The position numbers and the translations under genes were made by a program. Shown in pieces: positions 29,101 to 62,700 of a DNA stretch of 64,000 nt. The DNA lies in contig OX463809.1 of NCBI GenBank assembly GCA_949825045.1, positions 8,893,501 through 8,957,500 on the forward strand, read 5' to 3'. Within the stretch, counting starts at the first letter, position 1; the number at the start of each line of letters is the position of its first letter. The notes below the pieces were generated by a model that was not told where the DNA came from, ran no database searches, and saw nothing but the letters and a program-made list of their open reading frames with translations. The DNA comes from Argyresthia goedartella. Its lineage: Eukaryota; Arthropoda; Insecta; Lepidoptera; Argyresthiidae.

Positions 29101-32100
29101 CTGAGTTGATGGCTGGTCTCCCAGATGAGTTTCAACAAGACCCGCACGTTTTTGAGAATCCTGACAACCCTAACATGTTGTCAGTGCTTGGAATTCAGTA
29201 CCGGCCCGTCCATGATGAGTTTACCTATCGGGTGGTTTTAGAAACACCGAAGGCCTGGTCAGTACTGTCAACGATTGCGAGAACGTTCGACCCGAATGGA
29301 TGGATTTCTCCAGTCACCTTTGCTCTCAAATGTTTTATGCAAAGGCTATGGGCGGCTCAGTTGACCTGGGACACCCACCTCTCAGGTGATTTGTTGACTG
29401 ATTGGACGCGAATGTTCACCTCGCTATCGGACATAAATAATGTATCGCTGCCGAGGAAATTGGTCCCTGCTGGGGATTACAGGGCAACCCTTCACGGGTT
29501 TTGTGATGCCTCTGAACGAGGGTTTGCGGCAGCGGTTTATTTGCGAACCGTCACCTCCACCGGGGAGGTCGACGTGCGTTTGGTTTTGGCAAAAAGCAAG
29601 GTAGCGCCTATTCGGACAAGGATGACGATTCCAAAACTGGAACTGTCCGGGGCTGCTCTTTTGACCAAACTTTTGAATCACACTCTAACAGTGTTGCGTG
29701 GGTCAGTGGTTTTGAAGGATACGGTGTACGCTTGGACGGACAGCCAGATTGTTTTGTGCTGGCTGAAGGCTTCGGTCCATAACTTAGAGGTTTTTGTTGC
29801 GAACCGTGTCTCCCAGATTGTGTCGTCTGAGGTCCCACTGACCTGGAGACATGTACCAGGAGAATTAAACCCGTCTGATTGTGCATCCAGGGGATGTCAG
29901 GCTCCTGAACTCGTTAGACACCATTAGTGGTGGGGACCACCCTGGCTTGCCAAGAGAGAATCGGACTGGCCCCACAGCCATGTAGTAGTATCTTCGGATC
30001 ATGGCCCCAGAGCGGCCGTGCATGTTACCCAGAAGGCTGAGGACCCTGACGCCGGGTTTCTGCTGGACCGGTATAGCTCACTTGACAAGTTGATAAACGT
30101 GTCCACTTGGATTAGGAGATTCGCTCGAAATTGTCGTACTCCTCGCGATCAGCGAACGTTGAACCCTATTCTGACTCCGGCAGAGCGAAACGAGTCGCTG
30201 TTGAATTTGGTCCGGTTGGTACAGTCCTCGAAGTTTGGGGCAGAATTGGAGATTATACGAAGTGGACGTTCGAAATTGAAGGGAGCCGTCGCGCGTCTCA
30301 ACCCCTTTGTTGATTCGACCGGGTTACTTCGGGTAGGAGGAAGATTGCGCAATGCGAATCTGTCGTATTCGGCTCGTCACCCACTTCTGCTCCCCAAGGG
30401 GGGACAGTTAGTTGAATTGCTGGTGACTGATCGTCATATTAAAGACGCGCATGCCGGCTGTAACTTGTTGTTGGCCACGCTCCAGCGGGAGTTTTGGATC
30501 TTATCTGCCCGCCGTGCCATACGGAACATCGTGTTTCCGTGCATGCCTTGTTATCGACTTAAGGCTGCCACGATGCAACCTCTCATGGGGGACTTGCCCC
30601 CTGATCGTGTGAATGAGGTCAGACCGTTTTCAGGTGTTGGTACGGATTTTGCAGGACCGTTTATGGTGAAGAGTTCACGATTGCGTACCGCTAAGCAATA
30701 CAAGGCGTACTTATGTGTGTTTGTTTGTTTATCCACCAAGGCGGTACATCTCGAGCTCGTTGCTGATCTCTCGACAGAGGCTTTCATTGCTTGTTTGGAT
30801 AGGTTTGTTTCTCGAAGGGGACTTCCAACTTTGATCCGCTCTGATAACGGCACTAACTACATAGGTGCGGAACGATACTTACGAGAGATAGTCAACTTTT
30901 TGAATGTAAATAAAGTGGATATTGGAACGGCCCTCTCCCGTCGGGGTATACAGTGGACCTTCAGCCCACCGATTTGCCCCCACTGGGGTGGGATTTTTGA
31001 GGCCGTAGTTAAGTCAGCTAAGACGCACTTGGGGCGTATAGTAGGTCAGACCGCGCTGACTTTTGAGGAGCTCGCGACATTGTTTTGTAAAATCGAGGCC
31101 GTTCTCAATTCGCGACCGTTGTGTCCGCTCAGCTCGGATCCAAATGACCTGGAGGCTCTGACCCCAGGCCATTTCTTGATAGGACAGCCACTTAACGCGT
31201 TGCCCGAGCACCCCTTCGAGGGAGTGAAATTGTATCGGTTGTCAAGGTATCAGATGTTGCAGCAGTTTACTCAGAATTTCTGGAAGCGGTGGTCGCTCGA
31301 GTATCTGCATATCTTACAACAGCGCCTTAAGTGGACTGACAAAACTAGCCCCCCTAGTGTTGGTGACCTCGTTCTGGTTAAGGATGCTAACCTACCGCCA
31401 CTACGTTGGCGCAGGGGGCGCATTGTTAACTTGTTCCCTGGCAAGGACGGGACCCCCCGGTCTGCAGAGGTTCTAGTAGGAGGCTCGGTTCTAAAACGAG
31501 CGGTAGCAACGTTGTCTCGGCTGCCCGTAGATTAGGGGACAGGTGGGTGCCTGTCCGGGCGGGTGATTGTTCGATTCCAAATCGATATTCGATCGATGGT
31601 TTCTGAACGGTCATTTTAATTTGACGTTAGCTGTCAATCTGGCAGTTTTGAGAACTGACGGACGAAAGCCCTCGCAATGTAAACGCGTTTTGATTAGGGT
31701 GTTGAAATTAAATCGCAGGGCATCTGGAATGTATTCGGGATTCCCTCAGGATTGTTAATATAGCTGAGTGTGCCGTTGTCTCTCGAACCAGATAAAGTTC
31801 GGATTTTCGTGCCCGATTTGTATTTACCAGTAGAAACATAACCTGTGTTGGACACTGTGCTCACCACGCTGGCCCGCCAGTCATACCTGGTTGGCTGAAG
31901 AACCTGTCTACCAAGAAGAGCCTAGGGTGCGCCCGGGCCTTGCAGAGAGACAGGAGGTTGACGGGACCGAAGCACAGACCAGGTTAGATCTACCCCACAT
32001 AACTTCAGCTCGGTGAATCGCCGACGTTCGCCGACTTCTTGGCACCTGATCGTCACGCTACCTCGTAGCTCATGGGCCCCTACGAGGTCATTAGGTGCTG

Positions 32101-38100: not shown

Positions 38101-41100
38101 TTTTAATGTCGACCTGGGGCGCTAGTTACAAGTAGGATTGCAAATTCGAGGAAAATGGTAGGTACAGTCAGGATCACCTAAATGTGAACACGCAAGCTAC
38201 TCAAACAGATCTACTCATCTTAGAGAACTAGAAATTTCTACACAGCGGAATTGATGCTAACATCCTCTGCGTCAATATTATCTAAGCACAATTCAATCCG
38301 ACAACGGCGTGCTTACGTCTGCGTCTGATGCTGACTGTACCTGCCAAGTATATGAAATTTGGAGATAACCTTGCCGATCGGACTTAGTTGTGTCCTTGTA
38401 TCGTGATCCAGTCAGATAAGCTTAGCTCAACTCGACACAAGGGGCCGGTAGTTTAGTATTCGACCTGTTAGTTATTCAGTCGATATTAGGCAGCAGTAGC
38501 AAGGTTGTAAGTAATAGTTTCTTAGATTAGGTTCAGTTAAGCTGTAAAACACTGGTCAACATGTGCTAGAATTTTTACAGCCGCATGATACAACTATGCA
38601 TATATAGCGAAGAAGTGTAAGGTTTGAGTTTAAATCGATATTTTATTCGAGTTTTTCGATATCGATTTATAACCAAAATGGATGGGTATCGATGGACTCG
38701 AGCGATGACTGGATCGGAAGGGGCGGCGAGTGGCGGCATTCTGTGTTTGGCGGCGATATTGAGTGGTCGTGTCAACTGTAACGGATCGGTAGACTGAAAT
38801 AAATATCTTGTGCAGTATATTGGAAGGGAGTTATACTACAAATCAGAAGCGGGATGTACATCCCCACATTTTTGAATTGATGACGTGTTTTCAAAAACTT
38901 AACCTCTCGTAATTTCAAACTGTAGGTCTTCCTTGATACAGACTATTGCTCTCGGCTTTAACACCATATTCCATTATTTTGATACAGTTTGACGGTTATA
39001 GGATAGGGAAAAATGATAAATCGGTGGGTCAAATTGGTTTTGATTTTCGAAAACGTTATGTACATCAATATATATTGAATGAGTAATACAAACCCATGCG
39101 CAGCGAGCGAAGCCATAGGTCCATGTATCCACCATTTGAATAATGACAGTTTAGTGATCAAAAATATCTGAAAACGTGATATTTCATATCTGTCACATTT
39201 CCAAAAGGTTTTCAAGGACCCTAGTTTGGTTAGACCTTATTTTTGGGACCTGCCAAAGTCAAAATCATATTATGACTCAGGTGAGGGTGTGTCGTGCATG
39301 AAATTTTAACCACTAACAATGTATGTATACCCTTAAATCCGTCAAGGACCGTAAGGTCTCGGAAGGATTAAATTATGGTTTATCATGGATCCTGTGGGGT
39401 TTCTTAAAGGGTACCAAAAATGTCATCAAATTCACGCTAAGACGCACCGTTTCCGAGATATGGCAGATTTTACCAATTTTTGTTGTTTGAACAAATTCAA
39501 ACCCATAGTGTTGCTTGTGAGTTCTAGACTATGGAACAAGAGGGAAAGGGAGCACGCCGGCGGTTGGCGACGCCTGGGCCAAGCTCAGCCCCACCACGTG
39601 ACGCTGAAGGCGACAGAAGTTCGACGAGACAAAGTCGTAGCCGTCAACGCAGCGACGTGCACGCGAGCAGCTACAGAGGCCGCACCCACCATCGCAGTCG
39701 GAGTCCTAATCATGTGAGCGAGGGCGGCCGGAGTCTACTGGAGAAAGAACGCGTGTTGGAGCGGGAACGGGACAGAGTAAGACGCTTGGAAGACGAATTA
39801 GATCGCGAGCGGAGCCGTTTGCGTTCTAGGTCAGGATTTGGAGCGCACTCACGACACAATCGTGAGATAAGTCGTGTGCGTTCCAAGTCTAGGATACGTG
39901 ATCGCTCCCGACTTAGTGTAAACGATGACCGAGGTTCATCTCCGGGCCAAACAAAGAATCAATGCCCTCGAGCTGACGACCGCGGTGAGCAGCAAGGTCG
40001 CCACGAACTTTCCAACGAACCTTGTACTCGGTCTAACCGTAGGTCTGGTAGTCCAGTTTTTTCAACGAAAGACGTTATTAATATTTTGAATTCAATGAAA
40101 CCTTAGCCATCAACGGTAGCACAGAGTTCAAACAAATTAAATCATAAAAATATTTTGCCTGAGTTTGACCCATCGTCGAAAAATCAACGGATAGACATTT
40201 GGCTGCGAAAAGTGAACGAGTGTTCTACAGTTTATGGCTGGGATGATAAGAGAGTTGTACACTTCGCGATGCAGAAACTCAAGGGGTTGGCCAAGACTTG
40301 GTACGAGGGGTTAAATTCCATTCTGTTTAGTTGGTCGGAGTGGCAGGCAAAACTATTGACAGCCTTCCCCTGCGAACAGAATTATGGCCAATCCCTGGAG
40401 GATATGTTAAAACGTAAGAGCAGAGCCAATGAACCTATTGAGGTGTACTTTTATGAGAAGATCGCCCTGCTGAACCAATGTGACATCGATGGCAAGCATG
40501 CGGTCGATTGTGTTATTCACGGACTAAGCGACAAAACTATGAAAAGTAGTGCCCTTGCATTACGATGCACGCACCCTGATCAGCTTCTGCAGTTTCTTAT
40601 GAGCAATAAGGAATTGGCCCAGACGGTACAGCAAACGGAACGGTTCAGTTTTAAAAATAGGCCCGCAAACGATAATAGATCCACCAGTAGCAGTTTAGAT
40701 GGTAAGAGGCTTAACGCTGTAACGGACAATTCCGGATTGATCTGTTTTAATTGCAGGGAGCGCGGTCACCCCTTTATGAAGTGCTCTAAACCTTTGATAA
40801 AGTGCATCACATGCCAAAGATTTGGCCATAAATCGGATAGTTGCAACTTTAGGCCTCAGAGTAGAAATACAGAGCAAACTACACCCAAAACTATGTGCAT
40901 TTCGGCTTCCCAATCAAACTCAAAATATATAAAGGCGGTGACAGTGAATGGATCCCAGCTTCAGGCTTTTGTAGATTTCGGTAGCGGAGTGGCATTAATG
41001 GCTAAATCGATATTATCAACATTAGGACTCGTATGTGACAGTGGAGTAGTACCTTTGAAGGGATTTGGTAATGAAATTGTCCAGTCGGTTGGAAGCGTTC

Positions 41101-44100
41101 AGGCCAACTTAGTAGTTGACGGAGTAAAAGCCGAAGTCAAGTTTCATGTCGTGGATGACCGTTTCCTAGAAGCGCCGATACTTATTGGTCAATCTTTCAC
41201 TGAACAACCACATGTCGTTGTGTATAAGAATTCAGAAACTCTTAAATTCTTAAGCTTTGAGGATGAGATGCCTTTCGCTGATACCAACCTGGAAGAGGTT
41301 CAAAACGTCAGAATAACGGCTTTCTCTGGTATTCATGTTCACGGTCCGGCGACAATTACGGCGGTCACGGAACCACGTATAAATGGCAATATCATTATCA
41401 GCAGCAAGGTTGTAGGAAAACTGACAAACCAGTACACCATTTATGGAGGCATATACCGCGTGTGTAACGGTATAGTAAAAATCTGTGTTGCTCCCATCTC
41501 GCCTCAGCTTCGGTTGATAATGGGAGTAACACTGTGCCGTGCCACGAAAATTTTAATAGTAAACCGCATCTTCCCTGAGTCGGATGTGTTAATAACTGCT
41601 CATAGTGATATTGACGAGAGTTTGGTTCGGGTAGGAGACAGTGCTGACGAAGCAGACAAAAGAAGACTTTACGACATCTTACACAAATACAAACACTGTT
41701 TCGCTTCTACCTTGAAAGAGTTGGGGTGCACGAACGCGGCCGAAATGTCGATTGAAATTAACAACAAAAAGCCTATTGTATATCGCCCTTACCGCTTGTC
41801 GCACAAAGAGCGCGAGCAAGTGCGGACCATGGTGGGCGAGATGCTTGAGGCTAACGTTATTAGGGAGTCTACATCAGAATATGCGAGTCCGGTCATTTTG
41901 GTTCGTAAAAAGGACGGAAAACTGATATTGTGTATAGACTATAGATTACTCAACTCTTTGACAGTGAAGGAACGGTACCCGATGCCAATAATCGAGGACG
42001 AAATCGCCCGCTTATCTGGACAAGCATATTTTATTTCCCTCGACTTGGCATCGGGGTACTATCAGGTCCCTATATCGGACGCTTCAAAGGCCTTGACAGC
42101 GTTTGTGACGCCGGACGGTCAATACGAATTCAATCGTATGCCGTTCGGCCTCGCAAATGCCCCCGCGGTGTTTCAGCGAATGATGCACAAAGTACTGGGT
42201 TCTGCGCGATATAGCGAGGCCACCGCGATATATATATAGATGACGTGCTGATCTATGGCAGGGACAAGGAAGAATGTTTGAGTCGATTGGAGCACGTACT
42301 TGAGTTGCTGGAGAAAGCCAAGTTAACGTTAAACTTATCCAAATGCGAGTTTCTAGCAGATAAGGTGGAATATTTGGGCTACGAAATTAGCGCCTCCGGC
42401 ATAAGGCCGGGAGACAAGAAGATCAATAGTGTCATACAATTCCCACGTCCGATCAACCAGCACTCGGTGCGACAGTTTCTGGGTCTGGTGGGATATTTCC
42501 GCAAATTTATTCGGAATTTTGCGCAAATAGCGCATCCGCTGAATAAGTTACTTAAAAAGGATTCGACGTGGTGCTGGTTGGATGAACAGGAAAATGCTTT
42601 TAGGGAGTTGAAAGAACGCTTAACTAATCGACCCATTTTAGCTATCTATGATCCAACAGCGGAGACGGAGCTCCATACAGATGCCAGCAAAATCGGTATT
42701 GGTGGGATCTTGATGCAAAAACCTCTGGCCGGTGGGGAGTTCCGTCTTGTTGCGTTTTATAGTCGTCAGACCACGCCAGAAGAAAAGCATTTCCATGCTT
42801 ATGAATTAGAAACCCTGGCAGTGATTTGCTCCCTTAAGAAGTTCCGCGTTTATCTCTTAGGCCAGGAGTTTAGGGTGGTAACGGATTGTAGTGCATTACG
42901 CAGCACTTTCGTAAAACGTGATATAATACCCCGGGTAGCACGCTGGTGGCTGTTACTACAGGAATTTCAATGTTCCATAGAATATAGGGCAGGCTCTAAG
43001 ATGGCACATGTGGACGCGTTATCACGCAACCCTATACCAGATGAGGAAACCATTGATGTGTTAGGACAGTATCCGACGGTGATGTCAATAAGTAGCCACG
43101 ATTGGCTACAAACTCTGCAATTGGGAGATCCCGAGCTATGCAGAATAAGAGACATTATTTCGTCGGATGTTGATGTCGATGATCTAAAATATATCAGAGA
43201 CAACTACTTGATTCGAGAAAATCAACTATTTAAAATGATTGACGGGGACGACAACAACATACGGTGGGTGGTTCCTAAGGGGGCGAGATGGCAGTTGTGT
43301 CGACTAAATCACGATGATATTGGGCATTTTGGCATGGAGAAAACTCTGGAGCGGATAAAAAAGTCCTACTGGTTCCCAAAGATGTCCAGATTTATAAAAA
43401 AGTATGTACAAGCCTGTGTTCAATGTGCATACGCGAAGAAAAGTACAGGCGCACCAGAAGGATTCTTAAATACTATAGAAAAGGTCGAGGTTCCATTCCA
43501 CACCGTCCACATCGACCATCTCGGCCCCTTCGTGAGATCTAAACGGGGAAACTCTCATCTATTGGTTATCGTAGAAGCCTTTACTAAATTCATTTTCATA
43601 AAACCAGTGAGAAACACGAACACTCAGAACGCGATGCGTGCGTTGGAGGACGTGTTTTATACATTCAGGTTCCCGGATCGTATTATAAGTGACCGTGGCT
43701 CCTGTTTCACATCTCATGCTTTTCGAAGGTTTTGTTTAGATAAGGGTACCAAACATGTATTAAACGCGGTGCCTAGCCCGCGCTCTAATGGCCAGGTTGA
43801 GCGGTACAACCGCTCAATCTTGAATTCGTTGACTGCTCAAAATTTAGACAGCAATGAGAAAGTATGGGATGAGAAGATAGGCGCTGTACAATGGGGATTG
43901 AATAACACCATCCAAAAATCCACTGGCATGACTCCTGCAGAGGTTATGTTTGGGACGTCGATGAACGCAGAACTCGATCCTAAACTCAATGAAATTAGAC
44001 GGATCACCCGTAAAGATATTGATGTCATAACTATAAGAGAAGAGGTCAAAGAGAAAATCCAGAATAATCAAATAAGGCAGAAAGAAAATTATGGTCAAGG

Positions 44101-44742
44101 TAGGAAACCAGCTCGATAGTATAAAAAAGGAGACTTAGTCAAAATTACAAAAGTGGCGTTCAACAATGATGGAAAGAGTACGAAGCTCTTGCCTTCATAC
44201 ATAGGACCATATAAGGTGGTCATAGTATTGGGGAACGATCGTTATAAATTGGCCGCGATACCTGGGTTAACTGGTAGTAAGAATAAACGTAAAACTACAG
44301 TAGCGGCTGATCGAATGTTGCCCTGGGTTCCCATTGCGGCTTTGGAGGTACAAAGCGACTGTGATGACGATGATATTGGATGTTCTGCTCCAGATATTGA
44401 TGAATGTAATATTGAGAATTTTTACTTTTTTATTTGATTGGAAATTTATATTTATTTTATTGATTATATACAGAAATATTAAAATAGATAATAATATCAA
44501 TTGAATAACTGGTTCCACCGTTGGAAGTGTTTCCATTGTGAGTGATGGACGCAATCATGCTAGAATTGGATGGGTTAGTACGTTTGTGTCTATTATACTT
44601 AATAATGATGGTTTCAGTTGTTGCTAGAATTGGATGGTATAGCAGAAACTGCTGTATTGAATTGTATATTTGAGTACCTCGTAATTGGCGTAATATCTTA
44701 TAATGTCACTTGTATATAATACTAAAAGCTGTAAGGTTTACC

Positions 44743-44785
<43 letters not shown>

Positions 44786-47700
44786 ACTGTTCCATTATTA
44801 GAGGATATTTTATTGATTATATACATAAATGTTAAAATAGATATTGATATGAATTGAATCAATGTTTCGTCAGTTTGTAACTATTATGAGTGGTGGACGC
44901 AATCATGCTAGAATTGGATGGGTTAGTAAGTTTGTGTCTATTATACTTAATAATGATGGTTTCAGTTGTTGCTAGAATTGGATGGGTTAGCATGAACTGT
45001 TCCATTATTATAGGTGGCCAATTCTTAGCTAGAATTGGATGTGTTAGCTAAAATTGGATGTAATTTTGCGAGAATTGGATGGGTTTGCAAAACCACTATT
45101 GTTTATCTGTGTGACAAGAATTGGATGGGTTTGTGGCAAAGATAGATTGCGATTGTCTTATTGGTTGGTACTGCAAGAATTGGATGGGTTTGCAGGACTT
45201 ACTTTGATGAATCCATTATGATTATGTTTTATTATTTTTGTAAATTTACAGATAATTTATTTGTTTAAGAATGTCTCCCCTCGCCGAGTGTAAGGTTAAG
45301 CGTTACACCTGGAACCGTGTATGGGGACATACACGAGGTCAGGATGGACGAGTGTAAGGTTTGAGTATAAATCGATATTTTATTCGAGTTTTTCGATATC
45401 GATTCATAACCAAAATGGATGGGTATCGATGGACTCGAGCGATGACTGGATCGGAAGGGGCGGCGAGTGGCGGCTTTCTGTGTTTGGCGGCGATATTGAG
45501 TGGTCGTGTCAACTGTAACGGATCGGTAGACTGAAATAAATATCTTGTGCAGTATATTTGAAGGGAGTTATACTACAGAAGCTAAGTGACGATTTCACGA
45601 TACGTCATCACGCACTCATTTGAATGTATCTGTGAATCACGCCTTCTCTTTAACACAGGCTTGCATGGCGTATCGTGAATTCGACTTTGATCTTCTTTGC
45701 TTTACCTGTACGGTTCTACTATGCATAGCCGCTAAATACAGTTAAACTCAACTAAAATACTACATCTAAGGTTGCCTGTCGGCCAGATAGCGGTCATAGC
45801 CACATCATAAACTTGATCATTTAAATTTATTTTAATGAAATGGTCTGAAAGGGTTGAATTTGATGAAACATTTCTTGTTCTATACTACCCAAAGTTTCTG
45901 TAACATACATATCGAACTAACACGAAGACTATTCGGGGGTTCGCTGCGCTCGCCCCCTTTAGTCTTTACCTAAGCTACCGTAATGTTTTTCCCTAAAAGA
46001 TTTCTTCTTTCTATGAAAGTTCTAATTCAACCATGGTTGGCCATTTGATGATATGGTCAATTCTAGGATATGGTTACGACAGAGACATTTAACATGACCG
46101 CGGCTGTCAAAAAGGTGTACTTTTTTTTTTCTGCTCGACGCTTCTCGGTATTAGTCGCCGAAATTAGTTGTTAACGTAGACTTAATAAACTTCTAGACAT
46201 TATTCGCAACACATGAAAATCCTAACAGATTTAAACTAAGGTTTATGAGATGATATTTGTAGGGTTTTGACACAGAGTAAGTAAGTAAAGCAAAGAGTTT
46301 CATTCATCCATGGGTTTTGACATAGAGTCATACACACAAACATTTATATACAGGCACATACATTGCTTCTGACCCCACACTCGGATACCCTGTATCGTGG
46401 GAACCAGAAACAGCGACGTCACACACATAGAAACATCCAAGACTTGGAGGTTTTTCCTTTATCCCCAGCCGGAGACCTCTCGCATGGTAGGCAGAGCCTC
46501 AGAGGTCTCAATTAAGGCATTTGTCATAATAAAGTCAATATATTCGATTTATTTATATTTGGCTTTGTAAATTTGTTTATAGGAAATTATTAATAAATTC
46601 TGCAACAACGAGCGATCGTGTTGCATCTGCCAATAATATTAGACAGGGTAAAAAGCTTGATGCACAATCACGCGAAATTGTAAATATTGTATGTGTAGCG
46701 TATGTAATGTATTTAAAAGTTATGAAAATAATTATTTTCAAAAAGTCCTTCAAAGAGTTCGCGGCGCAACAGGAATTAAAAAGATATGTTGCTTCTGAAA
46801 TATAGATATGAATATAACCACTGTCAAGCTGCTGTTAGAAAAAATCGAGATGCTGGGACCTGAAGAATGGACCAAAGTTTGTAATGTCTATACCAAAGTC
46901 TACTGTGACTTGTACTATTAGGTATTCTGTGCTTGGGTACATTACTTTTTTCTACTTTATGGTAAGTATAGTATTGTGATGAATATATAGCAACGTATAT
47001 TTCTATGCCGATAAAAGCTCGAGCGGTAAAAAATAATAATCGTATTGAACGCGTATCTGACCTATTTATCTAAGGCATATTTAAAATGCATAAGTGGACG
47101 ATAAATAGGATAGCAGAAAGGGTTTTACCTAGTTAAAAGTTAGTACTCGTAAAACTGCCAAACGGCAGTTGGTTGGTTAAAATCAGACACTTAACAAACT
47201 CTATAGACCGTTAATTAAATACCGACGTTTAACCAAGTCACTAGCATTTTGATTTAAATAAAGCATCGTCGCAAACGTTTAACAATCTGGCGATGCAAGA
47301 TGGCGTCACCACAACAGCTGATTTGCACAGCTTTTAACAGGGCAAAACATTGCGGTAGCATAGGTGAAGGGTTAAATCCTTCCTTATCCTTCGTGTTAGG
47401 TTGAACATGTAAGAACAACAAAAAATACTTAAAACATAAAGTTAAGTACTCGTAATAAAATATTTATATTGTATATGTCTTGTTGCCTAGGAACGTTTAG
47501 ACAACTCGTTAAACGTTTCGTTCACTTACTTGTCTGACGGAATTTCAGTGACTTGGTTAAACTTCGGCATTTAATTAACGGTCTAGAGAGTTACTTAAGT
47601 GTCTGATTTAACCAACTAACTGCGACGTCTATACTACCTATACATAAAGAACTGTGAAAGCCTTGGTTTAATTCGAATAGAAAACATCATGCATCGTGCT

Positions 47701-50961: not shown

Positions 50962-51179
50962 TGTGCCAGCCATCCCTTATCATCACGGACTAAAGTATCG
51001 TCGAGATAAGTTATTGGCTGACACAGAAAATCGACATCACGTACCGGTTTTGGTACGTGATGATTATCGAGGACGATTTATATATAAGAAGAGTTATTTG
51101 TTAAATAAAACTAGACTGTAACTGAGCATATTCCAAGCCTTTTATTCCGTCTCCCGTAGGTTGCCACAACGTTGGCAAA
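50962..51179 (+). repeat. CsRn1-like 5' LTR
   Basis: Includes an 11-bp hairpin CATCACGTACC/GGTACGTGATG around GGTTTT, a TATATAAG motif and AATAAA. Same length and sequence as the 3' copy. Confidence 0.93.
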
Positions 51180-51229
51180 GTGGTGACCTCGACGTTTGTA
51201 TATCAAGCAACCTTCGGTTAAGCAGCAGC

Positions 51230-52021
51230 ATGTCGTCGCCTGTGAAACAGAACCCGTGTGCAGCTACCCTAGAAGTGCAAGCAATCAGCACTTCGTCTAA
51301 AATCGCAGACTTCTGGAAGGACAAGCCCCGGTTATGGTTCGCACATTTTGAAGCAGTAACCACCCCCCAGAAGTTAGGTGACGAATCCAAATTCCACCTA
51401 GTCCTTACCAAACTAGCCAAAGAGGAAATCGAACAAGCCAGTGACATAGTGATTTCCTTATCAGACAGCGGAAAGTACCAGAAGTTAAAAGACAGATTGA
51501 TTTCGACATATGAAGAATCCCCGCATCGCAAATTCCAGAGATTATTCACGGACACCGACCTCGGAGACAGAAAACCGTCACAGTTATTAAGAAAAATCAA
51601 GGAGCTTGGGGAAGGTCAAATCAATTACGAAACTGCAAAAATGTTTTGGCTAAAACAATTACCGACCTCCTTAACCTCAATACTTTCGGCAAATAAAGAG
51701 AAAGGAATTGACGATTTAGCCTAGATGGCCGACAATATTTACGAAGTCTCGAGCTTCGAACAAGTTGCTGCGCTAAGCAGGGTCGACGACCCAGTAACGC
51801 AACTAACTGCCGAGCTAGCGAAAGTAAAGATTGAGTTAGCTGCAATTCATAATAACAACAATCGTCGGCAGTTTTATCGCAGTAAGCTATTCTCAAGTTC
51901 ACGGTCAGGAAGCCCGTTTCCATTCCGGAGAAACTCGAAGTTATGCTTTTATCATTCACGTTTTGGCAAGAGAGCTTTCAAGTGCGAGGCTCCGTGTTCC
52001 TGGAAGCAACAGGGAAACTAA
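51230..52021 (+). CDS. gag: CsRn1-like Gag
   Basis: ATG 51230 (MSSPVKQN). Capsid with FWKDKPRLWFAHFEA, KFHLVLTKL and LLRKIKELGEG, the CsRn1-type Gag pattern. TAG at 51722-51724 interrupts but the frame stays open as MADNIYEV... to the CHCC motif CFYHSRFGKRAFKC...C at 51944-51997. Ends at TAA 52019; protease continues in another frame, so a small indel lies near 51998-52060. Confidence 0.85.
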
Positions 52022-52029
52022 AGCGGGCA

Positions 52030-52855
52030 TGCACTGAGGCGGAGCTGTGTGCTTTTTCACAATTTCATCGCCTATTTATCACAGACAAGAAGACTGGAGA
52101 AAAATATTTGATCGATACTGGCGCGAACATATCTGTACTTAAACGCAAGCTGAAGCATTCCGGGAAAACAGATTACTCATTACATGCTGCCAACGTTTCA
52201 AAGATCAGCACATATGGAGAACGATGTTGTGCCCTTGATCTCGGGCTTCGAAGAACTTTTAAATGGAACTTCGTGATCGCCGATGTCAATACCTCTATCA
52301 TTGGAGCAGATTTTCTGGAGCATCATGATTTATGGGTTGATTTACGCAGAAAAAGGCTGATTGACAACACTACCCAACTATCATCCAGAGGTAGAACCAT
52401 AATAGCAAACCAAGCCACTTTAAGTACCATTGATGGGAGTCTTGTTATCGCAGACTTACTTCGGAGATATCAGCGCATCACCGTACCCACATCTTTGAAG
52501 ATTAGTCCCAAGCACAACGTTCAACATTTCATAGAGACGCATGGCCCTCCGGTCGCTTGTAGAGCCAGGCCTCTCCCTCCAGAAAGGTACAGGACGGCTC
52601 AAAAGGATTTCCAGGACATGATGGATATGGGAATATGTCGACCGTCAAACAGTTCATGGGCCAGTTCTTTGCATATGGTGAAGAAGAAAAATGGTGAATG
52701 GAGACCATGTGGAGATTATAGAGCCCTGAATAATATAACAGTCCCTGACCGGTATCCACTCCCACGGTTACTAGATTTCACTTACATTCTCAAGGGGAAA
52801 CGCATTTTTAGCAAAATCGATATCCGGAAAGCATATCATTGCATACCTACCAATG
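52030..52855 (+). CDS. pol: Protease and N-terminal RT
   Basis: Protease KYLIDTGANISVL (canonical D-T-G) near 52105-52143 and GADFLEHHDLWVD. RT begins ARPLPPERYRTAQ, SSWASSLHMVKKKNGEWRP, CGDYRALNN and IDIRKAYH, then loses frame within about 10 bp at 52845-52855, where the neighbouring frame picks up the RT palm. Confidence 0.85.
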
Positions 52856-54583
52856 GCTCCAGAAGATATTTCCAAAACAGCCATCATCACCCCCTTCGGT
52901 CTTTTCGAATTTCCGAGAAGGACATTTGGACTTCGGAACGCCGGTCAGACTTTTCAACGATTTATGGACTCAATATTCAGACATCAAATATCTTCACAAC
53001 GCGGCGGAGCATCTTATCAAGAGCCAAAGGATGAAAACATATCAGATTTCACATTTTGTTTCGTCGACGACATCCTTTGTGCATCAGAAAATGAAGAGCA
53101 GCATTGCAAACATTTGGAGATAATTTTCAAGAAATTAGATGAACATGGTCTTACAATGAATCTGGCAAAATGCGAATTCATGAAGAAGGATATAGATTTT
53201 TTGGGGTATCATGTATCCTGTAACGGGATTTCCCCCACTCAAGAAAAACTTGAGGCTATAACCAACTTTCCTAAACCAGAAAAGGTGAACATGTTGCGAA
53301 GATTTTTGGGTATGGTTAATTTCTATAGAAGCAGCATCCCAAAAGCGGCATTTTATCAAGCAGAGTTGAACAAATATTTACATGGCTGCAAGAGGAACGA
53401 TAAGAGTGTAATTAAATGGACCAAGACAGGGGAAGAGTCTTTCGAAAAATGCAAGGAGCTTATGAAAAATTTAGCAAGTTTATCTCACCCTGCTAATAAT
53501 GCATCCATCTCGCTTATGACTGATGCTAGCAATGACTGCGTCGGCGCCGTTTTGCAACAAAAGGAGGATGGTGAATGGAAACCCCTCGGATTTTTTTCAA
53601 AAAACCTGACACAGACGCAACAAAAATATTCTACGTATGATCGAGAGCTTTTGGGTATCTACCTAGCTGTGAAGCATTTCCAAAGACTCGTGATAGGACG
53701 AGATTTTACTATCTACACAGACCATAAACCAATCACTTTCGCATTTTCCAAAAAACCAAATATTGATGACCCACCTCGGAGAATTCGTCAACTAGACTAC
53801 ATATCACAGTATAGCACAGACATAAGGCATATTAGCGGATCAGACAACGTGGTTGCAGATGCCTTATCAAGGATGATCGAGGAGATAATCAATCCTTCAG
53901 AAATTGACTTCGAGGAAATGGTCGAATTTCAACGCACGGATGCAAATCTTAAAGAGCTTTTCAAGAAATCAAATCTGACATTATCCAAGTTTAGTGTGCC
54001 CGGCAGTAATTCCCAGCTATATTGCGATACCTCAACCGGGCAACCGAGACCGTATGTTCCTGCAGTATTTCGGAAGAAAATTTTCGACGCGATTCATGGT
54101 TTGAGTCATCCAGGAAAACGAACCACACGAAAAATGATTTCAAAACGATTTGTTTGGGATAACATGAACAAGGAAATAAACGAGTGGTGTAAAACATGCC
54201 TATCATGCCAGAAATGCAAGGTTACTAGGCACACTATTTCACCTATCGGCACATTCATGCCCGCTCAGCGTTTTGAGCACGTGCATATAGATATCGTCGC
54301 CCCCCTACCTACAAGCCAAGGTTACAGATTTCTGCTGACTATGATTGACCGTTGCTCTTCTTGGCCTGAGGCATTTCCCTTGAAGGAGATTACTGCGGAA
54401 AAAGTCGCTTCATGTTTATTCCAAGGGTGGATCTGCAGATTTGGCCCCCCCCTCCGGCTTTCCTCGGACCGTGGAAAACAGTTCGAATCTGAGCTTATTA
54501 AATCCTTGGCGAGGTTAATGGGAACGGAAAAATTACGAACAACAGCCTACCACCCGCAATCCAATGGAATGGTGGAGAGATAG
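52853..54583 (+). CDS. pol: RT palm, RNase H and integrase core
   Basis: TAIITPFGLFEFPR, FGLRNAGQTFQRFMD, catalytic FVDD (near 53060-53072), thumb LRRFLGMVNFYR, RNase H (MTDASNDCVGAVL, YDRELLGIYLA, YTDHKPI), integrase finger (HPGKRTTRKM...CLSCQKC), core D (VHIDIVAPL), D (LSSDRGKQF), E (NGMVER). TAG at 54581-54583 directly after the catalytic-Glu helix start. Confidence 0.87.
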   Translation: MAPEDISKTAIITPFGLFEFPRRTFGLRNAGQTFQRFMDSIFRHQISSQRGGASYQEPKDENISDFTFCFVDDILCASENEEQHCKHLEIIFKKLDEHGLTMNLAKCEFMKKDIDFLGYHVSCNGISPTQEKLEAITNFPKPEKVNMLRRFLGMVNFYRSSIPKAAFYQAELNKYLHGCKRNDKSVIKWTKTGEESFEKCKELMKNLASLSHPANNASISLMTDASNDCVGAVLQQKEDGEWKPLGFFSKNLTQTQQKYSTYDRELLGIYLAVKHFQRLVIGRDFTIYTDHKPITFAFSKKPNIDDPPRRIRQLDYISQYSTDIRHISGSDNVVADALSRMIEEIINPSEIDFEEMVEFQRTDANLKELFKKSNLTLSKFSVPGSNSQLYCDTSTGQPRPYVPAVFRKKIFDAIHGLSHPGKRTTRKMISKRFVWDNMNKEINEWCKTCLSCQKCKVTRHTISPIGTFMPAQRFEHVHIDIVAPLPTSQGYRFLLTMIDRCSSWPEAFPLKEITAEKVASCLFQGWICRFGPPLRLSSDRGKQFESELIKSLARLMGTEKLRTTAYHPQSNGMVER

Positions 54584-55180
54584 CATCGTTCGCTGAAGGC
54601 GTCTCTCATGGCAAGGAACAGTAAGGAAAATTGGGTAAAAGAATTACCAATCGTCCTTCTTGGCCTAAGAAGTTGTTTACGAGACGACACGGGTTTGAGC
54701 GCCGCGGAAATGGTTTATGGAGAAACAATAAGGCTTCCCGGGGAATTCTTTGGTGATTCTGGCTTGCGATCAACGTATCACGACTACGTGCAAGATTTGA
54801 AACAACGAATATCAAAAAACTGCTCCGTTCCGAGGAGAGAGAATCACCAAAACAAGTATTTCGTCCACCCCGAGTTAAGCTCCTGCTCTCACGTTTTCAT
54901 CAAGAGAGAAGGTGTCGCCAAAGGTCTGATTCCTCCTTATGAAGGGCCTTACGAAGTTCTACGACGAACGGCGAAATATTTCGTCATCAACAAGAACAAC
55001 ACCGTCGACACATTTTCGATTGATAGATTAAAGCCAGCTTTCCTACCAGCAGATCAGCCGACTTCCATCACGTTCCCGCAACCAACGAGCAAAGCGGAAC
55101 ACTCAGTTGTCGAGTCAGCACGATCAACAACGTCCAAGTTTGGTCGACAGTACAAACAAACGTTGAGATTCCAACTTTGA
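54584..55180 (+). CDS. pol: Integrase C-terminal part
   Basis: Same frame: HRSLKASLMA, WVKELPIVLLGLRS, LSAAEMVYGETIRLPGEFF, and SHVFIKREGVAKGLIPPYEG with PYEVL, then IDRLKPAF, the usual end of CsRn1-type Pol. Natural TGA at 55178. Confidence 0.85.
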   Translation, partial: HRSLKASLMARNSKENWVKELPIVLLGLRSCLRDDTGLSAAEMVYGETIRLPGEFFGDSGLRSTYHDYVQDLKQRISKNCSVPRRENHQNKYFVHPELSSCSHVFIKREGVAKGLIPPYEGPYEVLRRTAKYFVINKNNTVDTFSIDRLKPAFLPADQPTSITFPQPTSKAEHSVVESARSTTSKFGRQYKQTLRFQL

Positions 55181-55197
55181 TGACGGCACTCGTTTGG

Positions 55198-55234
55198 TAT
55201 AAATAGCGAATTGGTAAATCATAGAGTATCATTC
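55198..55234 (+). promoter_or_regulatory. Internal TATA/initiator pair upstream of the small ORF
   Basis: TATAAATA at 55198-55205 and initiator TCATTC at 55229-55234 (A+1 at 55231, 33 bp from the TATA start), the arthropod spacing. It lies between pol and the small ORF, 43 bp before its ATG. Confidence 0.5.
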
Positions 55235-55273
55235 GCTATTCAGTAAACCAGCAGGAAACGCAACGAAACCACC

Positions 55274-55527
55274 ATGGGCGGATATAACTCCAAGGAACAA
55301 CTAACCATGACCCAAAACAACGGGATACAAGACGCCACCAAATTGACGGAAAATATCGCCGAGCGGAGGTGATAAAAGAGTTCAACGGTCATCGGGAGAT
55401 GATTCTTGCGACGCTCGGGATCCTCACCATACTAGCGGCCATCGTGTTCTTCATGGTGGCCAACCGTTTTTTAACGGAAGAGTTGGCGCCGCACTCCGGA
55501 AGAGGGGGATTACCTCAGCCTAGCTAG
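55274..55527 (+). pseudogene. Small accessory ORF: myristoylation-type start and one hydrophobic segment, frameshifted
   Basis: ATG 55274 in an ideal Kozak context (ACCACCATGG). The first frame starts MGGYNSKEQ, a fit to the N-myristoylation pattern G-x3-S, and ends at TGA 55370 after 32 codons. An overlapping frame that is open to TAG 55525 encodes a 20-residue hydrophobic stretch at 55402-55461 followed by a short charged tail (FLTEELAPHSGRG). Read together they suggest a small single-pass membrane protein broken by one indel. I do not recognise the family; the position is where some Gypsy elements carry env, but this is far too small and lacks glycoprotein features. Confidence 0.55.
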
Positions 55528-55636
55528 TCGCAATGTATAGTATTATTTAATTTAAATGTTTTCGTGCTTTGTTTTTTTTACTTTTCCATTTATCGTAATT
55601 TACTCAATATTGCCTTTTTGTAAGGGGGGGAGTATC

Positions 55637-55854
55637 TGTGCCAGCCATCCCTTATCATCACGGACTAAAGTATCGTCGAGATAAGTTATTGGCTGACACA
55701 GAAAATCGACATCACGTACCGGTTTTGGTACGTGATGATTATCGAGGACGATTTATATATAAGAAGAGTTATTTGTTAAATAAAACTAGACTGTAACTGA
55801 GCATATTCCAAGCCTTTTATTCCGTCTCCCGTAGGTTGCCACAACGTTGGCAAA
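55637..55854 (+). repeat. CsRn1-like 3' LTR
   Basis: Identical to 50962-51179 as far as I can compare. Followed by the ATAAT duplication. Confidence 0.93.
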
Positions 55855-55859
55855 ATAAT

Positions 55860-57240
55860 GAAAAAATAAATTACTTTAGATAACTCTTTGACTGTCGTTA
55901 TTAGTTAATACATCAATGATTCTGTGGTGTGAAGTTGTATTAATTTTGAGTAAGTGAGCCTTCTCACATGCTGAGAAAACTTACACAGATTTTAAAGTTT
56001 ATGATAGCGATTTATCAGAAAAACAACTTGTTATAACAGGTATTCCACTTGGAAAAATATTGACACCGAATGGGCAAACAAAGTTATAACAATAATTGTA
56101 AGATAGGTGTCGAGTACCCTAGAAGGCACAATGATCATTTTTGAAGGGAGAATTCAAAATGAAATAACTTTAACGTTAGATATGCCAAAAAGTAGGTAAA
56201 AAGTAGGTAGTTACGTGCTCTTTGCATTAAAAATTAGGGATTATTATTAAGAGCAACTTTATATTTGTTACGTGAAATTAATCAAAATGATTATTTATTG
56301 ATGATTTTTTAATATTAATAGTTATTTTGCAGTGTTTCAATCATAAGCCTTAGCTACAAACAGGTTATGTTTGACACATTCTAGCCCAATGCTCCTGTGT
56401 TTTAATTGTAAATATATATAATATATTTCAATCACTTGCGGGTACCGAGAGAACCGAAAATCCCGGGAATATCTTCCTTTTCTGATGACGAGTACCGGGA
56501 TTCCCGGTTCTCGACAACCGGAATTTTTAGATTACGTATGTAAAACTAAAGTATAGAGCAATTTCTAGGGGCGATTAAGTTGTTTGCAGCTACGATTTAC
56601 TTAATTATTGAAATTAATTAGGCCGCAGCGTCGCACGGCTCGGCTTTTTAATATTTTTACGGTCATATCGTAATGTTTATAAGTCCAACATCCGGCCTTT
56701 ATGTGGCTTTTAGCCAATGAAAACGGATTTTATTCATCAACATTTTATGATAGTATATTTGCTGCACGAAATGGACTAGGAGGATTAAATAACTAGCTTA
56801 CCATGGGAACAACTATGACTCTGCCTCCCCGAAAGGGAAAACGATCCAAGAAATACCTATTTATTTGAAACACCGACAAACCGCGGCTTATATTTAGAGT
56901 CACAGTCACCACTTCCGTATTTACCACTCTGTGGTATTTACATAACGTTGCAAGCTTCCGAAAATCAGCAGCAAATTAAACAATATCCTTTTCCTGATAG
57001 TCTAATCAGCGGGGTTACCATCATCACCAATCAGCTGTGGGGCCATCAACAGTTGATTGATTATTTTTCATAGATTTTGAGCTTTCTAACCAATAAGGTT
57101 CAAAATCGCGGGCCATTTTTCGATCTACCCACGGACATCGATTCAGATGTATTCAAAACAAGATCATCATCGCCATGGCAACCATTTCCATTACAATTCG
57201 ACATCATGGGCTTTATTCACCTAATACCACAGACACTGAA
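55860..57240. other. Non-coding, degenerate repeats only
   Basis: No supported gene. 56440-56530 holds CCGGGATTCCCGGTTCTCG-type repeat sequence; the remainder is A/T-rich. Confidence 0.45.
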
Positions 57241-59701: not shown

Positions 59702-62700
59702 CTATTGACCAGAAAAATGTAAATATTTATTGAGAACTTGCCGTTTTGACAATTGAGGCGTAGCGTTTTTTGCCAAGTAATGCAGTCTTATATTGGTATA
59801 TCTTTCCATTACAGCTTTTATCAGTAATATTAGATGATTATCCATTGGGTTTTGTTCGAATTGGTGAAAATCTATGTCGTTGAACAGATTCATGCCAATG
59901 AATCGGGGTAGTGCTTTAGACATTAATGATTGTTTTAAATTTTTAACCCTAACCTTTATTTTGTCTTTGGTAAGCACAGTTGATTTTATGATCACTTCCA
60001 TGTTTTTGCAAATTGTTATAACGTCATGGGAAGGATATATTAAGCCGCCTTTATCCTTGAGTTTTATAAACTTATGTGTAGCGCGCTTGTGCATACGTCG
60101 CATTTCACAGTTTTAATCAGAGCATGAACAACGAAGCCAGCTACGTAAGTTATGGTTTGTGAGCTGTATTGTGTTAGAACATCAACCATCATTACTACTT
60201 CTTCGTCGAATACTGCCATTTCATGTAATATATTTATGTCGTCACACTCTTCATCTCGTAATCGGGGATCGATAGTGTGGTTGATGCGAACAGCCGATGA
60301 ACATGTCAGAAGGGACATCTTTTCGAGTGCTCGGCAGTTCCCACTGTCCACGTCTCGGAGTTCTGACTTGACCATCAATTTTTTGTATATTGATTTGAAT
60401 TTTCGTGCTGTTGGGTTTGTATTACAACCCCCGTGGCCTCGGATTTGGCCAAAAAGCAGCTCAAGATGGTCCTGACTAATCTTGTAAACAGGGAAGTAGC
60501 TTAGTTTTCGTTCTTTTTCAACTAGCCGAACATACAAATCTTTGAGGCTCTTTATACAGATCAAAAATCCGACAAAACCAGTTTTCCTCGATGAGTCAAT
60601 TACTGCCGTACCATCCACAAGCTTCAATTTTTTCAGGTAATTTTCGGCTTTTTCCAGAAAATCAAAGATTTCAACCTTATTTTGTTCACAGATTGGCTTT
60701 TTGTAATGTAACTGGGCTACATGTCTGGAGTTCAATATATCAAATAGATTGTTGACTATTTTCAGAAAGTTGACTGTGCCATCGACATTTTGAAAACCTG
60801 GTAAATTTAGTTCTGAGCAAAATGTTAATGCGACTGCCACACTGGTGCTGAACAATTGGGATGCCAATCTCACTTTCATTTTCTGGTTTTTAAAGAATAT
60901 GTGGACTCGACGCAATTTGTTAGCTAAGTGCATCTTTTCTTCTTCTTGGACATCGTTAATTTTTTTTAAATGTGCCCATTCCACTTCTTTTTGGGTTTCA
61001 TCAACAAAGCTTCCTTTGGCTTCAAAAGCATTCCTCAATAACTTCAACATATGACATGGATCGGGAAAGATGAAGATCGGTTTCTTTGTAACGGGATGTT
61101 CGAAATTTGTTTTTAAGTCTTCTATGTTCAGTGAGCACCCAAGTTCTTTAGTCATTGTCATATTTGCAGGGCAGCCGTCAAAAGTAAGTGATGTTATTTC
61201 GATTCCCGTTTCTTGTAACAGTTCAAGATATTGTGTAACTAGATTCGCTCGTTGTTCTCCAGTAACACCAGCGACTAGAAAATACCCGACAGGTATCTTC
61301 CAAGGGGCATTAATTGCGGTTACTAGAAAAACTAGAGCTTCCTTTGCCTCGGGCAAAGAATCTGTATCGGCCATTTTGAAATTGCATATATCTACATATC
61401 CATGCATATACTCACCGTCCCACTCTACACGACGGCGAATGGCCATTTCATCGAGTACAACATTACACACCAGTGTATAATCTGTATTTTCAACTTTCAG
61501 CTTGATAGCTTCAAATGACTCCTTTGTAAACCCGGGGTCGGAGTCAATCGCCTCGTACCATTTCCTTATGGTGCGAACGTGGGGAAGGCAAGATTGAAAC
61601 TTTTGCCGCACATATTCGTAGGCCTTAGGCGAATAAAAATGAAGTGTACAGGCAAAAGTTCTCAATTCTGCTGAGTATTTTTCAGTGGATTTTTTGTCGA
61701 CAGATTGTTTTTTCTCACATCGTTCAATGAGATCAGCCACTCCTACACCTAAACCTTCTAATTGTGTGACTTGATCAGAATTAACTAATTTTTGATCTTT
61801 AAGATCTCTCAGAACATCCTTCATGTTTAAATTTTTTTTGCGGTAGCGGCTGTTTTGTTTTTGAAGAGTTTTAATTTTCTTATTTTTTTGCTCGAGTACG
61901 ATTTCCAATTGGTCTATCCGATGGCGCAGCTTCCTCTTGCGTGGGGTCTCGAAAATGCTGTGATTTTCTTGGTCCTTGTCCTGTAATTTGTATGTTTAAT
62001 TTAGTTGCTGTTAGTCTTCTTATCACAGGAATATGAATGGGCGATAGAAGTATGATAAAGAAAGAAAGGTACCTTTAAATTAAGATAAATTGGGATCAAA
62101 TGTGCCTTTGCCACCCCGCATGGAAAAAGGCGTGACACTATCTGTATGTTTACTTTTATAAAATTAAATAAAATTACAATTCAAATAATAATTCAAATAC
62201 ATTTCTTACATTTTCATTACCTACTCTGTCCGTGGTCAGCAAAGACGGTTCTTCAGACTCAGCTTGTTTTGATGTCTAAAAATAAAGATGTAAATAAGTA
62301 ACCCGAAGATTTTTATAAATTGTTTTAATTTGACCCGATTTACATCATTGCCGTCATCTCCTTCAGACACGCATTCATTCAAATGTGTTTTCTCTGGTTT
62401 TATGGTATCCTGAGACAAAAAGGTGCAAGCAATCAGTATTCAAATACGTATCACGCAGTTTTTCATGTTAAAATTTCAAAAAAATACACCTGATCGCTGC
62501 TATCTCCTACAGAGACGCATTCATTGATATGGTTTTTCTCTGGATCTCTGGTACCCTAATAAAATAAGATGCATTACTTAAAGTTATATGTAGTTAGTAA
62601 AGGAATTTATAATTTCAAGTAGATATTCAATTAATAATCTAGAAACAGTCTTTTTATAGTGGTATGGTGTAAGAAATATTTTAAACCTATCCATTGTATG

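Follow-up and report, generated by a model that had tools for sequence, protein, structure and literature searches.

The 3′ untranslated region (UTR) of a decayed Ty3/gypsy retroelement in the genome of Argyresthia goedartella carries, between pol and the 3′ long terminal repeat (LTR), an array of eight hairpins that present a nearly constant loop on stems of different sequence. Comparison between the units gives good support to selection on these hairpins. The window, that is, the whole stretch of DNA that was analysed, comprises 64,000 nucleotides (C3:8893501-8957500), and the genome searched comprises 1,108,636,262 bases in 89 contigs. The eight cores, GAATTGGATGGGT or variants of it, are located at positions 44563, 44627, 44911, 44975, 45032, 45072, 45118 and 45177, all on the + strand; six match exactly, one with one mismatch and one with two. 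At a tolerance of two mismatches the window holds 11 core hits, compared with a mean of 1.78 and a maximum of 6 in 100 shuffles. The original prediction, made from the letters alone, had placed eight cores with two loop variants in this region, and all of them were found there, the variants being those of U2 (..GGTA) and U5 (..GTGT). The array is composed as follows:

44548..44590, + strand: hairpin U1, loop 44563-44575
44615..44651, + strand: hairpin U2, loop 44627-44639 (GGTA variant), with an inserted repeat changing its outer arm
44646-44786 (approximate boundaries), + strand: dispersed genomic repeat carrying a (TAAA)11 tail; it interrupts the array at the outer arm of U2
44896..44938, + strand: hairpin U3, loop 44911-44923, block duplicate of U1
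44963..44999, + strand: hairpin U4, loop 44975-44987, block duplicate of U2
45018..45057, + strand: hairpin U5, loop 45032-45044, variant GTGT
45064..45092, + strand: hairpin U6, loop 45072-45084
45102..45146, + strand: hairpin U7, loop 45118-45130
45163..45203, + strand: hairpin U8, loop 45177-45189

The pairs U1/U2 and U3/U4 represent a block duplication (131 nt at 90% identity), and therefore six of the eight hairpins are independent. Of the 46 listed matches of the 3′ UTR query in the genome (40 of 131 candidates scored), 33 belong to the dispersed repeat, at 94-99% identity. The stems run over 12-16 positions with mismatches; counted without gaps from the loop, each unit has 1-3 mismatches in the first 12 positions and 11-14 Watson-Crick or G-U pairs in 16, which amounts to 76 of 96 positions in the six independent units. 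U6 has 8 continuous pairs and U5 has 7, followed, by eye, by 6 more after one bulged C. The stem lengths first proposed hold for the inner 4-8 pairs and fall short of the full extent. The 13-nt loop stands as a 13-mer core, but in sense folding with RNAalifold an extra G-U pair forms within it in seven of the eight units, leaving an 11-nt loop, AAUUGGAUGGG. A supposed ninth core without arms, at about 45051-45060, is in fact the 3′ arm of U5, in which CCAATT pairs by eye with AATTGG. Isolated sense segments of 47 nt, each compared with 500 dinucleotide shuffles, gave P values of 0.002-0.058 for U1, U3, U4, U5, U7 and U8, of 0.078 for U2 and of 0.42 for U6.

A covariance model of the eight units detected nothing further at E values up to 5 on the two strands of the 64 kb, a generic array detector indicated no second array in the window, and the window has no Rfam match at gathering scores. 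A motif copy in the LTRs, AAAATGGATGGGT (38675 and 45412), was rejected as an extra unit: it has two mismatches, is near chance and folds into a stem rather than a loop. A kissing partner for the loop within the element was likewise discarded, the longest complement being 8 nt, a length also attained in 124 of 500 shuffles of the 13-nt loop and in 85 of 500 shuffles of the 11-nt loop.

Comparison of the arms between units carries the argument for selection. In the eight units, 83.3% of the cells of 12 pairs are paired, nine of the 12 pairs changed on both sides, and the covariation score was 0.595 against 0.227 (0 of 500 shuffles), with slid registers giving at most 0.186. In the six non-redundant units and 16 pairs, 79.2% are paired, 13 of the 16 pairs changed on both sides and the score was 0.621 against 0.254 (0 of 500 shuffles; slid registers at most 0.231). 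When the 3′ arms were permuted among the six units, only the true assignment gave 32 Watson-Crick pairs of 48 at positions 5-12 (1 of 720 assignments, mean 18.0); at the inner four positions, 12 of the 720 assignments reach the observed value. Claimed beforehand as the signature of a selected RNA structure, compensatory change around a frozen loop is borne out by these counts, and the pattern is repeated in a sister family described below.

The identity between the six units shows how unevenly the parts have changed. The loop is identical at 180 of 195 comparisons (92%) and the inner arms at 44 and 43 of 60, while arm positions 5-16 agree at 52 and 57 of 180 (29% and 32%) and the sequence just outside the stems at 16 and 18 of 60 (27% and 30%). 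The outer arms have diverged about as much as the outside sequence, yet they jointly pair best in the true assignment. Drift after simple duplication, the option that had been named as a possible refutation, is hard to hold, because the loop was kept and the arms diverged to background level while still pairing as a set. A related explanation is that the array is a functionless mutational by-product, in which hairpins are duplicated in tandem and template switching perfects the inverted repeats, as in plant Ogre 3′ UTRs. Hypervariable 3′ UTRs are attributed to Ogre/Tat elements in the excerpt of the relevant work (PMC7004042), unit number in the present family varies from 2 to 10 between insertions, and a block was duplicated within the array itself; nevertheless, the loop has a fixed length and is conserved amid arms and surroundings that are not, and template switching would not be expected to keep a loop constant. 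In addition, the block duplicates differ at 1 of 48 paired sites as opposed to 8 of 51 outside sites (and at 2 of 6 stem-mismatch and 2 of 26 loop sites). We consider the by-product explanation improbable.

A protein search of the genome with the pol sequence, in which 71 of 25,832 candidates were scored, gave 72 matches, and 30 loci were read including 1.5 kb downstream; among the other 42 matches, only one (C18) was read downstream, as L134. Of the loci L172-L200, L172 alone shares the array found at the window's own locus (L171). Four loci whose pol is 69-70% identical, L173, L174, L183 and L188, present an array of their own, with seven units each and three in L188. In this sister array the loop is GAAGGAGGGT or a variant of it, the inner stem is GTGA/TCAC in most units and the outer arms differ. 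The seven units of L174 are 84.8% paired, both sides have changed in 10 of 16 pairs, and the covariation score is 0.548 against 0.221 (0 of 500 shuffles; slid registers at most 0.213). Permutation of the arms at positions 5-12 gave 1 of 720 in L174 and also in L183, and 2 of 5040 in L174 at positions 5-16. At positions 1-6 the true arms of the sister array are not separated from permuted ones (48 of 120 in L174, 30 of 120 in L183), since the inner stem is identical in most units.

The loops of the two families line up by eye as GAA..GGA.GGGT. The pol ends of the two families align over 215 nt (71%), as does the stretch just before the 3′ LTR between the window's family and L173/L174 (73 nt, 70%, E 0.001); over the array itself there is no alignment at E below 0.05.

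Repeats of some kind look common in the 3′ UTRs of this group, and hairpin arrays do not. In 29 of the 30 loci, more 9-mers occur at least three times beyond the pol end than in any of 40 shuffles, in a stretch that can include LTR sequence, and L193 has none. This general richness in repeats also agrees with the by-product explanation. The repeated words differ between families, and unit or repeat number is variable among copies of the window's family and also differs between L183 and L188. L177 represents another type, with 4-bp stems CTCC/GGAG around AAAAGTT or GAAAGTC; its inner five positions gave 138 of 5040, and its outer pairing is below the permutations. Intermediate values were obtained for L175 and L190 (sense z -2.6 and -2.7). 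Other 3′ UTR repeats were observed in L187, L191, L192, L194, L196, L195 and L197-L200, among them CCATGTGATTGG (11-12 times), GGTTACAAGG (11-12 times) and AATCGTTCG. The idea that every sister family has a hairpin array was rejected, as L187 and L191 are at chance in the permutation and L196 and L198 are without sense structure.

Copies of the window's own family were detected through an exact 15-mer, AGAATTGGATGGGTT, a procedure that may miss decayed copies without an exact core. It occurs 27 times in the 1.1-Gb genome, always in one of six clusters (6, 4, 4, 2, 7 and 4 occurrences) that belong to the window's family or its fragments, and a reversed-pattern control occurs once. A search for the loop near other Gypsy 3′ ends had been proposed beforehand; in this genome the exact core is found only within this family and its fragments, and a related loop in the sister family. 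The covariance model recognised 30 units at five other loci (4, 6, 2, 8 and 10), so that two to ten units are present per locus. The units follow a common order, in which A-B blocks (U1/U2 type) appear one to three times and are followed by C-D-E-F (U5-U8 type); C-D-E-F is absent from L133, which was shortened by deletion, and from L131, a fragment. The LTR pairs of two copies differ at one site (C30) and at two sites plus a gap (C18), so the array goes with young insertions. Two further partial pol copies are close to that of the window (C19, 93%; C24, 96%). In the 30 units of the other copies (21 distinct), pairing and covariation score exceed all shuffles (0 of 500 each), and double-sided pair changes (194 of 500) and further pair types (175 of 500) are not above shuffles.

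A frozen loop on stems that change and still pair suggests that a protein reads the loop, and this protein may be the element's own Gag. We tentatively favour, with somewhat less than even confidence, the view that the genomic RNA carries in its 3′ UTR a multivalent RNA element acting in cis, whose loops would be read by Gag. Each hairpin would present the same G-rich loop, free in stem sequence as long as pairing is kept, and several copies would provide avidity; the two CCHC knuckles of Gag could then bind the unpaired purine- and G-rich loops and mark the element RNA for assembly, that is, for packaging. The loops of both families are rich in G and purines (AAUUGGAUGGG in the window's family, GAAGGAGGGU in the sister family), and the array combines several stem-loops, a common loop motif and different stems, as expected of a packaging signal. 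Gag is ranked first because of precedents in mouse mammary tumour virus (MMTV), human immunodeficiency virus type 1 (HIV-1) and Ty3. As far as the excerpts of these works go, both Gag binding and packaging in MMTV require a single-stranded purine stretch, GGAGAAGAG, whose key parts are GGAG and AG (PMC8096270); the nucleocapsid protein (NC) of HIV-1 first binds a [UUUU]:[GGAG] element (PMC7395439); and localisation and packaging of Ty3 RNA depend on UTR or POL sequences, with imprecisely defined Gag sites (PMC4974528).

The same RNA-structure evidence would serve equally for an array read by a host RNA-binding protein, as an element for nuclear export, stability or localisation, or as a sponge for a host factor. 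The constitutive transport elements of simple retroviruses, which recruit the NXF1 pathway and export unspliced RNA, would be the model for such an element. Multi-stem-loop export elements are described in retroelements, in the portion of the literature available to us (PMC11379458). The loops of the two families are alike by eye in UTRs that otherwise have no match over the array, which fits a conserved host reader. On the other hand, at 24 of the 30 loci neither loop is present in an array of this sort, which would be odd if all of them needed the factor; no host motif was identified, and the window has, as noted, no Rfam match at gathering scores. We regard a host reader as possible, although clearly less probable than Gag.

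Several observations weigh against loops read by Gag on the sense RNA. In the excerpts of the corresponding works, the packaging signals of HIV-1 and Ty1 are located at the 5′ end (PMC7395439, PMC4974528). Among the four copies of the window's family with C-D-E-F, 4 of 78 paired columns are variable as compared with 15 of 203 outside (p 0.60), and loop columns (5 of 52) are not below the outside value; stem-mismatch columns vary at 3 of 18. No constraint is visible among these copies, which are too alike, and the absence of slower change at paired or loop columns is also in line with a mutational by-product. The 3′ UTR repeats of three relatives are without sense structure (z 0.5 in L187, 2.2 in L196 and 0.5 in L198), and those of L187 and L191 show no arm pairing by permutation; such an array is therefore not needed by all relatives. 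In folding of the whole array against 25 shuffles each, the window's family gave z values of -2.4 in sense and -4.6 in antisense (-2.8 and -5.7 in a separate run). The antisense loops are also more open in local folding (0.73-0.97 vs 0.28-0.67), the hairpins U2, U6 and U8 have sense pair probabilities below 0.5 in their context, and the ratio of G-T to A-C mispairs is equal within units (14:5) and across units (80:29).

Some of these strand results would fit an array that acts at the DNA or antisense level, either because antisense RNA or minus-strand cDNA folds or because an insulator-like DNA-binding protein uses the clustered core. The more open antisense loops and the stronger antisense z of the window's family argue for this explanation, and the mispair ratios, which were tried as an indicator of the strand and gave no signal, do not favour sense. 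However, a double-stranded site of the gypsy insulator type needs no paired flanks, and here the flanks pair far above permutations and slid registers, the true arm assignment exceeding every other. The sister array and that of L177 fold better in sense (L174, -8.0 vs -5.0 in antisense; L177, -6.3 vs -3.5), and L190 folds better in antisense (-6.3 vs -2.7). Wobble conversions among copies of the window's family lean towards the sense strand, where G-U is formed at 6 of 7 pairs at positions 1-12 (one-sided p 0.06) and at 8 of 11 at positions 1-16 (p 0.11), neither value being significant. Since an array at this place in an LTR element is part of its genomic RNA in sense orientation, the sense RNA is the natural first candidate for the folded molecule. 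Action at the DNA or antisense level appears unlikely.

If the loops are indeed read by Gag, they might represent family-specific addresses that change from one family to the next in step with the RNA-binding part of Gag, whereby each family would assemble on its own RNA, a proposal that we put forward as doubtful. The array would then be a multivalent and readable identity code of a retroelement. The choice of their own RNA by Ty3/gypsy elements is poorly known, and in the excerpt of a review the packaging sequences of Ty1 and Ty3 are called imprecisely defined (PMC4974528). A compact array with a fixed loop, natural variants in copy number and a sister array with a related loop constitutes a directly testable candidate, and reading by Gag would bear on the choice of RNA cargo by domesticated Gag proteins.

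The host of the array belongs to Ty3/gypsy by its domain order of protease, reverse transcriptase (RT), RNase H and integrase, its two TG...CA LTRs and its short target duplication. The features of the element outside the array are:

38612-38615 (before the 5′ LTR) and 45578-45581 (after the 3′ LTR): 4-bp target duplication GAAG, read from the sequence
38616..38840, + strand: 5′ LTR (TGTA...TACA), member of the repeat pair, ends read from the sequence
39531..41250, + strand: Gag region and protease, with an RS/RE-rich N-terminus, two CCHC knuckles and an aspartyl protease (weak Pfam match); frame interrupted
40155..44437, + strand: pol, with protease, RT, RNase H, integrase and SH3-like tail by Pfam hits; several open frames in Ty3/gypsy order
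45353..45577, + strand: 3′ LTR, member of the repeat pair, read from the sequence

The LTRs were detected as a 227-nt repeat pair at 98%, including two chance bases, and differ at 4 of the 227 compared positions. In the Pfam analysis, the order in pol is protease (a weak match, below the Pfam cut-off), RT, RNase H, H2C2 and integrase. The coding region is broken at several places and its reading frames are described unmended. The two zinc knuckles of Gag, read by eye, are CFNCRERGHPFMKC and CITCQRFGHKSDSC, and the N-terminus is arginine-rich. Among named sequences, the pol piece 42245-44119 is matched best by those of Lepidoptera: Parnassius mnemosyne (71%), Plutella xylostella (67%) and Manduca sexta (65%). 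Directly after the 5′ LTR, at the expected place of a dimerisation or primer site, a perfect 14-nt palindrome, GGGATGTACATCCC, occupies positions 38851-38864, and the usual TGG start of a primer-binding site was not seen there in the sequence. The end of the UTR into the 3′ LTR (45317-45369), with the inverted repeat GTGTATGGGGACATACAC, is 89% conserved over 54 nt in the sister loci L176-L182, among the 12 best rows, and may be the region of the polypurine tract.

Other mobile elements surround this one in the window. A Pao-type element (15168-31867) has 300-nt repeats 16.4 kb apart and encodes a Pao peptidase and an integrase, and a gypsy element is apparently nested in it at 16221-25578. Positions 50962-55861 hold a third gypsy-like element, whose 225-nt LTRs are 99% identical and in which the generic array detector was negative. 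Positions 60064-61908 contain a minus-strand open reading frame of 614 aa with P-element/TNP-like transposase domains, and positions 4339-4730 a tandem array with a period of 28 nt.

No clustered array of covarying hairpins with a single loop in a gypsy 3′ UTR was found among the listed titles and abstract starts of the open-licence literature, which is weak evidence of absence, and a text search for the loop letters gave three papers, unrelated by title and abstract start. In viral contigs, a scan with the 15-mer gave at least 120 stretches with one core each, none with convincing arms among the 80 listed, and a two-core pattern gave 0 matches. A search for relatives of pol in viral and prokaryote contigs gave two distant loci (L121 and L122; 28-30%) without an array.

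Among known systems, the Drosophila gypsy insulator shares with the array a repeated core clustered in an untranslated region of a Ty3/gypsy element. It consists of clustered Su(Hw) sites, lies at the opposite end of its element and has a different core; unlike in the insulator, the flanks of the core pair here. The array also resembles the multiple packaging signals known from RNA viruses and from hepatitis B virus, with many sites per genome and one motif for the capsid protein, as these are presented in parts of two works (PMC7612645; PMC7793301, on enterovirus E). In hepatitis B virus, according to the same excerpt, the packaging stem-loops share the loop motif -RGAG- (PMC7612645), which is shorter than the frozen loop of 11-13 nt in the moth element; binding was shown for the virus, whereas the present case is built on sequence. 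Multiple viral packaging signals are spread over the genome, but the hairpins described here are clustered. The Gag/NC sites of MMTV and HIV-1, as excerpted, likewise offer an unpaired or weakly paired stretch rich in purines or G, and the Gag of this element is two-knuckled; those sites lie in the 5′ part of the RNA, in contrast to a 3′ UTR with up to ten near-identical loops.

Retroviral export elements (the CTE and RTE) are, like the array, multi-stem-loop RNA within retroelement RNA, although an array of identical 13-nt loops is not described in the excerpt consulted (PMC11379458). Plant Ogre/Tat elements, in the portion of the work that describes them (PMC7004042), share with this family the presence of repeats, family-specific and variable in number, downstream of the coding region and ahead of the 3′ LTR; they differ in that their repeats are tandem monomers and a source of satellites, whereas the units described here are hairpins whose stems covary around a frozen loop. 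The best named pol matches, being lepidopteran, do not place the element in the plant Tat lineage. Multiple packaging signals, retroviral export elements and the hypervariable 3′ UTR repeats of Ogre are the nearest known kinds.

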